Shown here: one piece after another, positions 24,803 to 27,401 of the stretch
Layout of the letters: every line of letters starts with the position of its first letter
How positions within the stretch are numbered: position 1 is the stretch's first letter
NCBI GenBank assembly: GCA_950054395.1
Contig: CATLOZ010000009.1
Coordinates: forward strand, 1-33,415
Length of the DNA stretch: 33,415 nt
From: an uncultured Chloroflexota bacterium
GTDB taxonomy: Bacteria > Chloroflexota > Dehalococcoidia > Lucifugimonadales > GCA-002694895
Direction of reading: 5' to 3'
The notes under the pieces: model-generated
Database searches by the model: none
What the model saw: only the letters and a program-made list of their open reading frames with translations
Told to the model about the DNA's origin: nothing
Made by a program: the position numbers and the translations under genes

Positions 24803-25786
24803 ATGAAAAATTATACGAAAAATGAAGCAAAAGAATGGGCAAGATCTTTTTTAGTCGGACAATGGTCAACTTTAGTTACACCCTTTGATGAAAATGGCTT
24901 AATAGATGAAGAAGGTTTGCGTGATAATATTGAATATATTAAAAGTTTAGGAACGAATGGAGCTGGGTGTTCTTGGGGTATGGGAGAGTTTTGGAGTTTG
25001 TCTACCAGCGAAAGAAAAAAATTAATGTTTATTGTTAAAGACCAGGCTCAAGATTGGCCTGTTGCAGCTCATGTAAGCCATACTTCAATAAAGGATATTT
25101 TTGAGTTAATGGATTCCGCTAAATCATTAGATTATGAATTATTAATAATAGGAGCTCCATATTTTGCCACTCGTAAATCTGATCAAGTTATTGAATTCAT
25201 TAAATATATAGCACAGAATACAGATCTTGCAATTATGTATTATAATTCTCCTCAATTTGGAACAATTTTAAATTCTAATGATCTAAATAGTATTGTAGAA
25301 ATAGAAAATGTAGTTGGAGTTAAAGAAGCCAGCTTTAATAAGGAAATTTCTATTGCATCACATTTGGAATTAGGTACTAAAGCAATTATTAGTACACCAG
25401 ATGAATGGATATTTTGGGAAGGGAATAAACAAGGCTTTCAGCAACAAGTTATGTTTGCTAATACTTCTGATTGGAGATTTGATACACCTGACAATAATAG
25501 TTATGTAAAGTTTATAAATAAGGCAACAAAGGGAATTATTGATAATAATCTTTATGAAAATGAAATCAGAAATATTAAAAATATTTCTGATAAATGGTGG
25601 GGAAAGACAGTTTCAGATGCAGGAGGTGTATTGCCTGTTGCTTTATGTAAGTATTGGGGGGAATTAGTAGGAATGAGTAGTGGATGCCCTAGATTACCTG
25701 TTATAGATTTATCTGATGATGATAAAAAAGATTTAAAAGATGAATTGATTAAATTGGGGAAATTAAATATTTCACTAGAAGTTTAA
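24803..25786 (+). CDS. DapA/NanA-family class I aldolase, substrate unknown
   Basis: A 327-residue TIM-barrel lyase or synthase of the dihydrodipicolinate synthase superfamily. It begins with the family's STLVTPFDENGLIDEEGLR, has the catalytic Tyr147 in IMYYNSP and the Schiff-base Lys174 in VGVKEASF. The usual GTTGE motif is replaced by TNGAGCSWGMGEF, so it is unlikely to be DapA itself. The long C-terminal part with DKWWGKTVSDAGGVLPV is less typical. Pyruvate or another 2-oxo acid is the probable partner. It lies 13 bases before the MfnB-like gene, in the same direction, suggesting a shared pathway. Confidence 0.83.
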   Translation: MKNYTKNEAKEWARSFLVGQWSTLVTPFDENGLIDEEGLRDNIEYIKSLGTNGAGCSWGMGEFWSLSTSERKKLMFIVKDQAQDWPVAAHVSHTSIKDIFELMDSAKSLDYELLIIGAPYFATRKSDQVIEFIKYIAQNTDLAIMYYNSPQFGTILNSNDLNSIVEIENVVGVKEASFNKEISIASHLELGTKAIISTPDEWIFWEGNKQGFQQQVMFANTSDWRFDTPDNNSYVKFINKATKGIIDNNLYENEIRNIKNISDKWWGKTVSDAGGVLPVALCKYWGELVGMSSGCPRLPVIDLSDDDKKDLKDELIKLGKLNISLEV

Positions 25787-25799
25787 ATAGAGGTTTGAA

Positions 25800-26795
25800 A
25801 TGTTACTATTAGTTAGTGTTCAAAATGTAGAAGAAGCAAAACAGGCTATTAAAGGCGGAGCAGATATAGTTGATGTTAAAAATTTGCAAGAAGCTTTAGT
25901 AGGATCTGCTCATCCAAATATATTTAAAGAAGTTAAAAAAATTGCTCCTGATCCCATACATTCTAGTCTGACTTTGGGTGTTGTCCCTGATCAAATTGGG
26001 ACAGTGGCTATGGCTGTTCATGCTGCAGGTCTTTTAAAAGCAACATCGGTTAAAGTTGGATTTATGAAAACAGAATATAGTTTTGCATTAGAAACTTTGT
26101 TAGCTTGTAGAGAAGCTTTGGAAGGATCTAACACTATGTTAATTGGTTCTTTATTTGCTGACAATTTGATTTATGAAGGCGGCTTGAACCCTTCATTAAT
26201 GGTTGATTTGTCAGTAGAAGGTAAATGTGATGGGTTTTTAATTGACACTCTTGTAAAAGACGGGAGAAATCTTTTTGATTTTATTTCTGAGTCAGAATTA
26301 AAAGATATGGTTATGTCTGCTAAATCCAGAGGATTGAGTACTGCTTTGTCAGGACATTTGAAATTGAGTGATTTAGATGAATTGGCAAGAATTAATCCAG
26401 ATATAGTAGGCGTTAGAGGAGCTGTATGCTCTAAAGGTGATCGAGATGAAGGAGTATATTGGGAAGCTGTGAATCATTTTAAATCTGAGCTAGACAGAAG
26501 GAAATCAGAAGGATTGAAATTTTCTGAAAATATTTCCGTGGATAAAGTTTCAAATAAAACATCTCGCAATTTCAAAGGAGAGGTTGTCATAGATGGTAAA
26601 GGTAAATCATGCGCTGGTATTATTGCGGCTTTATCTGAACAAATTAATTTAGATAAAACTTCTATAGTGGAAGTGATTATTCCCGATAAATTAAATACAT
26701 ATGATGTATTTTTATGGGCAAAAAATGATAATCATAGTATTATGAATCAGCATACTGATGAGGATGGAAATCTAAGGATATTGGTTAAACCTTAA
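25800..26795 (+). CDS. MfnB-like (5-formylfuran-3-yl)methyl phosphate synthase fused to TusA-like domain
   Basis: Residues 1-~235 are a DUF556/MfnB barrel. It starts MLLLVSVQNVEEAKQAIKGG and keeps Asp25, Lys27 (ADIVDVKN) and Lys85 (SVKVGF), positions I recall as catalytic in the Methanocaldococcus enzyme, and Asp149 (GFLIDTLVKDG). MfnB condenses two glyceraldehyde 3-phosphates to the furan precursor of methanofuran. Residues ~261-331 resemble TusA/SirA: VVIDGKGKSCAGIIAAL with Cys271 at the sulfur-carrier position but followed by Ala, not Pro, then YDVFLWAKNDNHSIM and a DGNLRILVKP end. A linker of about 25 residues joins them. AGAGG precedes the ATG. The product in this bacterium is unknown. 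Confidence 0.8.
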   Translation: MLLLVSVQNVEEAKQAIKGGADIVDVKNLQEALVGSAHPNIFKEVKKIAPDPIHSSLTLGVVPDQIGTVAMAVHAAGLLKATSVKVGFMKTEYSFALETLLACREALEGSNTMLIGSLFADNLIYEGGLNPSLMVDLSVEGKCDGFLIDTLVKDGRNLFDFISESELKDMVMSAKSRGLSTALSGHLKLSDLDELARINPDIVGVRGAVCSKGDRDEGVYWEAVNHFKSELDRRKSEGLKFSENISVDKVSNKTSRNFKGEVVIDGKGKSCAGIIAALSEQINLDKTSIVEVIIPDKLNTYDVFLWAKNDNHSIMNQHTDEDGNLRILVKP

Positions 26796-26812: not shown

Positions 26813-27130
26813 ATGGTAGAAATAACTGCTGTTTTAAGAGATATAATATTAATTGCATTTATCCTCTTATTAGCTGCCTTAGCTGTTTTTGGGTATATTA
26901 GATTAAATAGAATTATGACTAAAATTGATTCTTTAATTGAAAATTCTCGAAAATTATGGTCTTTATTTGGGTATGTGATTTCCCCAATTGATAAGATTAA
27001 TTCTAAGACTATTGATTTTATAACAAAATCATTAAAATCAATTAATGTGGATAAAGCAACTAAAACTGCAAAAAAAACAACTAAAACTGCTACTGATAAA
27101 ATAAGGAGAAAAAATAATGGCTCAAAATAA
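26813..27130 (+). CDS. Small membrane protein (DUF948-like?), Lys/Thr-rich tail
   Basis: A 105-residue protein with one transmembrane helix (about residues 8-29, LRDIILIAFILLLAALAVFGYI), then a short amphipathic region (MTKIDSLIENSRKLW), and a C-terminal tail (TKTAKKTTKTATDK) alternating Lys and Thr. The layout is that of DUF948 proteins, which often stand beside a YtxH-like gene, as here, but similarity is only general. AAGGGA precedes the ATG. It overlaps the next gene by 14 bases, so the two are translated together. Confidence 0.65.
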   Translation: MVEITAVLRDIILIAFILLLAALAVFGYIRLNRIMTKIDSLIENSRKLWSLFGYVISPIDKINSKTIDFITKSLKSINVDKATKTAKKTTKTATDKIRRKNNGSK

Positions 27131-27401
27131 AAATAAAAAAGGCTTTGGCAATCTATTTTTAGGATTTGCATTAGGAATGTATTTAGGCCCAAAGTTAGTT
27201 AGGAAATTAAAGCAAACAGAACTTACAGAGAATGAGAGATTGAAATTATTTGCTATGAATATGCGAGATGCATCTTTAAATATATTAGAAGCTTTACGTA
27301 AATACTTGGATAATCTTGGGATTGAACCTTCTAAAGATATTTTCGATGAAATTGAAAGATTGATTAACAGAAAAAATAACAAGCAAAATTCTGACGATTA
27401 A
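27117..27401 (+). CDS. YtxH-like small membrane protein
   Basis: A 94-residue protein. Residues 10-26 (FGNLFLGFALGMYLGPKL) form a glycine-rich short membrane segment like that of YtxH/GlsB-type proteins, followed by a basic stretch (VRKLKQ) and an amphipathic helical tail (SLNILEALRKYLDNLG). AAGGAG lies upstream within the end of the preceding gene. Function unknown; such pairs often relate to envelope stress. Its stop abuts the convergent pheA stop. Confidence 0.6.
   Translation: MAQNKNKKGFGNLFLGFALGMYLGPKLVRKLKQTELTENERLKLFAMNMRDASLNILEALRKYLDNLGIEPSKDIFDEIERLINRKNNKQNSDD

Follow-up and report, generated by a model that had tools for sequence, protein, structure and literature searches.

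An MfnB-type furan synthase fused to a TusA-like domain and linked to a DHDPS-type partner in uncultured Chloroflexota

The window analyzed here, a 33,415-nucleotide stretch of contig CATLOZ010000009.1 from an uncultured Chloroflexota bacterium, contains an intact ORF of 331 aa at positions 25800-26795 (+), in which a barrel of the MfnB type is followed by a domain resembling TusA. What would a furan synthase make with such a fold tethered to it, and does the cysteine of this fold carry sulfur? The original prediction knew of no described example of this architecture, and likewise no description of an MfnB-TusA protein was found in the open-access literature. The answer that we tentatively prefer is an assembly in which an aldolase-type barrel and a furan synthase work together with a thiol carrier on a tether, which would probably lead to a sulfur-containing, furan-derived metabolite or cofactor precursor and not to methanofuran.

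Residues 1-227 of the ORF product (25800..26480, +) form an MfnB-type (4-HFC-P synthase) TIM barrel according to PF04476, superposition on 4RC1 and the catalytic residues. The PF04476 family matched residues 3-227 with an E-value of 3.1e-53 (181.3 bits vs a cut-off of 22.4); the cut-off of the equivalog NF002573 ((5-formylfuran-3-yl)methyl phosphate synthase) was not reached (181 bits vs 341). An alignment profile of the barrel retrieved MJ1099 of Methanocaldococcus jannaschii (4RC1) from the PDB at an E-value of 1e-51, and 4RC1 superposed on the predicted model of the window protein along the whole barrel with a TM-score of 0.94 and 37% identity. The barrel also dominated the matches in a fold search with the whole predicted model. 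Asp25, Lys27 and Lys85 (codons 25872-25874, 25878-25880 and 26052-26054) were invariant in 61 of 61 homologs, and the active-site residues Asp149 and Lys153 (codon of the latter, 26256-26258; all codons on the + strand) were invariant as well. In the characterized MfnB, the Schiff base is formed by Lys27, and the enzyme requires two lysines and two aspartates (PMC6604932). Lys155, the equivalent of Lys153 in the window protein, has been assigned a role in catalysis or substrate binding (PMC11365854). The original prediction of an MfnB-type barrel with Asp25, Lys27 and Lys85 in place was thus confirmed, none of the barrel lysines being lost in the alignment, and the formylfuran-phosphate synthesis that it put forward is plausible in view of the barrel homology and the retained catalytic residues. 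Altogether, the case for furan formation by this barrel is strong. The similarity to MJ1099 (4RC1, 4U9P) includes all four equivalents of its Asp25, Lys27, Lys85 and Lys155. However, the archaeal enzyme is a free chain of 242 aa (construct length) from a methanofuran organism, whereas the window system combines a TusA-like fusion and a DHDPS-like partner with no methanofuran pathway markers.

The TusA-like domain occupies residues 261-331 (26580..26792, +) and is separated from the barrel by a variable linker at about residues 238-260 (26511..26579, +), which is predicted to be flexible from pLDDT values below 50 at residues 239-259 and differs in length among homologs. Judged from the window alone, the TusA assignment is doubtful, as the match to PF01206 was sub-threshold both for the whole protein (E 0.03) and for the isolated domain (E 0.0014), with 18.9-19.1 bits vs the cut-off of 28.6. 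With the relatives included, the assignment becomes firm. When matches with E-values of up to 1 were admitted, PF01206 was matched by 51 of 51 orthologous domains (best E 1.8e-7), and each of the other families by at most five of these 51. Most copies fall below the Pfam cut-off, which one ortholog exceeded with 28.8 bits in a six-frame search. Comparison of the ortholog domains by hhalign with 11 canonical TusA paralogs from related genomes gave a probability of 91 and an E-value of 1e-6, and paired Cys271 with the cysteine of the CPxP motif. The AlphaFold2 model of the domain was confident (mean pLDDT 92) and had the order beta-alpha-beta-alpha-beta-beta. Its best fold matches in the PDB were the SirA-like 3HZ7, 3LVJ (E. 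coli TusA complexed with IscS; TM 0.82), YhhP and YeeD, with TM-scores of 0.79-0.82 and modest E-values of 0.008-0.03, as expected for a domain of 71 residues. No TusA chains were found in the PDB by sequence search with the domain profile; the domain sequence alone is too divergent, and the fold comparison was therefore needed. The TusA-like nature of the C-terminal domain, as originally proposed, was upheld by the orthologs, the predicted fold and the hhalign alignment, although the PF01206 match of the window domain taken singly stayed below the cut-off.

The domain shares with TusA/SirA/YhhP (PF01206; 3LVJ, 3HZ7, 1DCJ) the fold, the topology and a single cysteine at the N-terminus of helix 1, and with canonical TusA paralogs also the W-A and G-H pattern. 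This lone cysteine, Cys271 (codon TGC, 26610..26612, +), is the first residue of helix 1, occupies the TusA persulfide position and was invariant in 61 of 61 homologs. In contrast to the known proteins, the window-type domain is covalently tethered to an enzyme, and the CPxP motif is absent from every copy: Cys271 is followed by A/S-G/S and never by Pro-x-Pro, the alanine in place of the first proline having already been read correctly from the window. In E. coli TusA, the equivalent residue Cys19 receives the persulfide from IscS (PMC11302665). We estimated dN/dS in 12 close pairs at about 0.02-0.06 for the barrel and, where estimable, about 0.01-0.08 for the TusA-like domain, with the linker more relaxed than either. 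The domain is therefore constrained as strongly as the enzyme barrel, and because of this strong purifying selection and the conservation of Cys271 a purely decorative role is unlikely. Based on the fold, the invariant cysteine at the persulfide position and the constraint, we have moderate confidence in Cys271 as a sulfur carrier. Two points call for caution: CPxP has been lost, and neither a cysteine desulfurase nor another sulfur gene was recognized in the neighborhoods of the locus as a possible source of sulfur.

TusA-like folds can also bind partners without any movement of sulfur. The fold may accordingly have been kept as a docking or substrate-holding module, with the MfnB-type barrel and the barrel of the upstream partner making a sulfur-free furan metabolite; we regard this as somewhat unlikely. 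As a part of the same reading, Cys271 would be structural or would form a hemithioacetal or thioester with an aldehyde intermediate. Such a role agrees with the loss of CPxP in all copies, with the missing sulfur genes and with the absence of canonical TusA from most carrier genomes. Among 40 relatives, canonical TusA was present in only about 1/4 to 1/3. It is harder to reconcile with a single cysteine retained in all 61 homologs exactly at the persulfide position and with the strong purifying selection on the domain.

The gene that ends 13 bp upstream of the ORF (24803..25786, +) encodes a partner of 327 aa from the DHDPS/NAL superfamily (class I aldolase type), as recognized by PF00701 (E 8e-24; 84.3 bits vs a cut-off of 22.1); this third part had been overlooked in the original prediction. 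No named-subfamily or equivalog cut-off was reached by the partner: TIGR00674 (DapA) scored 72.6 bits, short of 206, and the archaeal KDG/KDPG aldolase model was matched weakly. The catalytic tyrosine and the Schiff-base lysine of the DHDPS/N-acetylneuraminate lyase superfamily are preserved as Tyr147 (25241-25243, +) and Lys174 (25322-25324, +), both invariant in 61 of 61 sequences. In contrast, the pyruvate-carboxylate residues were lost in all 61, the TT motif being replaced by G/N-M and Arg138 (DapA numbering) by Phe152. The partner differs further by near-invariant aromatic residues (W58, F63, W64 and F152) and by a C-terminal half divergent from the superfamily. Since Tyr147 and Lys174 are kept, the carboxylate residues are gone and the aromatics are near-invariant, the partner may catalyze Schiff-base chemistry on a non-DHDPS, perhaps aromatic, substrate. 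Alternatively, it could be a KD(P)G-aldolase-type sugar-acid enzyme that channels glyceraldehyde 3-phosphate into the MfnB barrel, leaving the TusA-like domain a secondary role. The weak matches to the archaeal model point in this direction, as does the proposal that COG0329 (DHDPS-family) paralogs of cultivated SAR202 serve non-phosphorylative sugar-acid breakdown (PMC10444878). However, the loss of both TT and Arg138 in every sequence and the aromatic residues fit an aromatic or otherwise different substrate better, and with no equivalog cut-off reached we consider a sugar-acid aldolase distinctly unlikely.

The partner was linked to MfnB-TusA in 60 of 60 neighborhoods, which comprise 31 loci with adjacent same-strand genes (gaps of -8 to 205 bp) and 29 in-frame fusions encoding one polypeptide of about 670-740 residues. 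In a phylogeny of the fusion, an analysis suggested along with the original prediction, the in-frame DHDPS-MfnB-TusA proteins grouped as a single clade, both in the MfnB-TusA tree (100/99) and in the DHDPS tree (96/88). Pairwise distances of the partner and of MfnB-TusA were correlated (r 0.79), with 0 of 500 permutations as high. Of 40 relatives, 22 have MfnB-TusA, and clear orthologs of the partner (E <= 1e-110) occurred in exactly these 22; any other DHDPS homolog in the 40 genomes was at 1e-17 or worse. Given the fusions and the perfect co-occurrence, the three parts are likely to act jointly. As 29 of the 60 relatives carry the partner within a single chain with MfnB-TusA, we regard the three-part assembly as the functional unit and the window as its two-gene version.

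Further pathway genes nearby were considered and rejected, as no flanking gene tracks the cassette. RecG, FakA, prephenate dehydratase and Trk transport are housekeeping flanks in shared synteny, and MutM, ThiD, acetyl-CoA synthetase and, in one genus, a xanthine-dehydrogenase-type set are lineage-specific; in both groups several names were read from sequence. No gene for downstream tailoring of a furan was linked to the cassette, and no C1 genes were recognized among the recurrent neighbors in the 60 neighborhoods. The profiles for FTR, Fae and MfnF (TIGR03123, which we take to represent MfnF/Orf9) each had matches in 0 of 40 relatives, whereas control methanogens were detected. Methanofuran was rejected as the product on these grounds and is very unlikely. 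An ordinary enzyme of methanofuran or methylofuran biosynthesis with a decorative extension would explain the barrel homology and the conserved catalytic residues, but in genomes lacking all three markers, and with no C1 gene around the locus, it is highly improbable.

The survey covered Chloroflexota genomes and plasmid records of other phyla. PF04476 was present in 118 of the 247 genomes sampled from the Dehalococcoidia order of the window (45 of 95 among the good ones), in open frames of at least 325 residues without internal stops, except for one contig-edge fragment. No free MfnB frame without an extension was encountered in the 247 genomes. Similarly, the profile of the TusA-like domain had matches in 69 of 117 genomes from this order, always in the MfnB fusion save for contig-edge fragments, and there was no free copy of this type of domain in the 117. 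A phylum-wide sample of 400 genomes produced two matches, the genome of the window and another of the same order, and a contig scan with the window protein alone gave two loci, both from the same genus. The named relatives are Dehalococcoidia or Chloroflexi MAGs, from which, together with the make-up of the order, we infer that the carriers are SAR202-type and marine. Among plasmid records, 44 had MfnB homologs and none of these covered the C-terminal TusA-like domain. Four plasmid loci were viewed: two belong to C1 clusters of Alphaproteobacteria, and two are located in Streptomyces beside dehydrogenases and a methyltransferase. The Streptomyces homologs (NZ_CP108735, NZ_CP027299) resemble the window system in having MfnB outside a C1 gene cluster but have neither a TusA-like domain nor a DHDPS partner. 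Chance resemblance, a frame error or an assembly artefact, to which the weak single-sequence TusA score might point, has a negligible probability against the same architecture without internal stops in 118 genomes and a TusA fold both predicted and recovered from the PDB.

The preferred three-part assembly would work as follows. Its first part would be the DHDPS/NAL-superfamily partner, a barrel of the class I aldolase type. In the second, the MfnB-type barrel would convert two triose phosphates to 4-HFC-P or a close analogue through the Lys27 Schiff base. In the third, a cysteine desulfurase would load Cys271 of the tethered TusA-like domain as a persulfide, and the domain would then swing over and pass its sulfur on to an intermediate of either barrel. 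MfnB catalysis proceeds by phosphate elimination, isomerization, aldol condensation and cyclization, with the enol form of methylglyoxal as an intermediate and an aldehyde as the product (PMC11365854, PMC6604932). We infer that a persulfide might attack this enol intermediate or the aldehyde product. The output, for which a sulfur-modified furan had originally been suggested, would be a small molecule, probably with sulfur, and distinct from methanofuran.

The working logic of the proposed assembly is that of ThiG-ThiS, where the thiazole synthase, a TIM barrel, binds its sugar-phosphate-type substrate as a lysine imine and receives sulfur from a small carrier. ThiS, a ubiquitin-like thiocarboxylate carrier, has a different fold, and no homology is claimed. 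In an extended form of the proposal, the system would be a thiazole-synthase analogue built from unrelated parts and widespread in SAR202-type marine Chloroflexota: the MfnB barrel would form the ring, the tethered TusA-like carrier would give the persulfide sulfur, and the DHDPS-type barrel would extend or trim a thiophene or thio-furan product. We consider this extension unlikely. If the tethered cysteine does carry sulfur, the assembly represents a new route by which sulfur reaches an enzyme that forms a ring, and a lineage abundant in the ocean would then have a novel metabolite or cofactor with sulfur in it. Should no sulfur be transferred, the assembly would still be a conserved system for furan synthesis in a setting other than methanofuran metabolism. 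Since the natural fusions are single-chain constructs, one purified protein would be enough to test the question.

Several additional observations were made around these loci. Two small overlapping same-strand ORFs downstream in the window (26813-27130 and 27117-27401), the first of a membrane type, are conserved in the genus, and small YtxH-like proteins have a similar position in about 20 split-form loci. In about ten genomes of genus g283 (L083, L095, L097 and others), the three-subunit molybdoenzyme set of the xanthine-dehydrogenase type is located 2-5 kb downstream on the same strand. The genomes G012 (L037, contig C19) and G019 (L112, contig C29), which are assigned to different families, encode identical MfnB-TusA proteins. 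G019 has a listed contamination of 10% and holds a second MfnB-TusA copy, so that L112 is probably a contaminant contig. The same order has a second TusA-like fusion without CPxP, a protein of about 511 aa with a cobalamin-independent methionine-synthase-type domain (PF01717), which was full length in three of 40 relatives (L138, L136 and L135 of G007, G010 and G025, with L148, L146 and L144). A second, short TusA-like protein is encoded just upstream of it. On a plasmid of Phyllobacterium zundukense (L153:7992-9164), MfnB is fused to dihydroneopterin aldolase (FolB) within a C1 cofactor cluster, the record being named for the furan synthase only. On the two Streptomyces plasmids (L151, L152), genes for an aldehyde dehydrogenase, an alcohol dehydrogenase and a SAM methyltransferase come after that of the MfnB homolog in the same order, which looks like a furan natural-product cassette.
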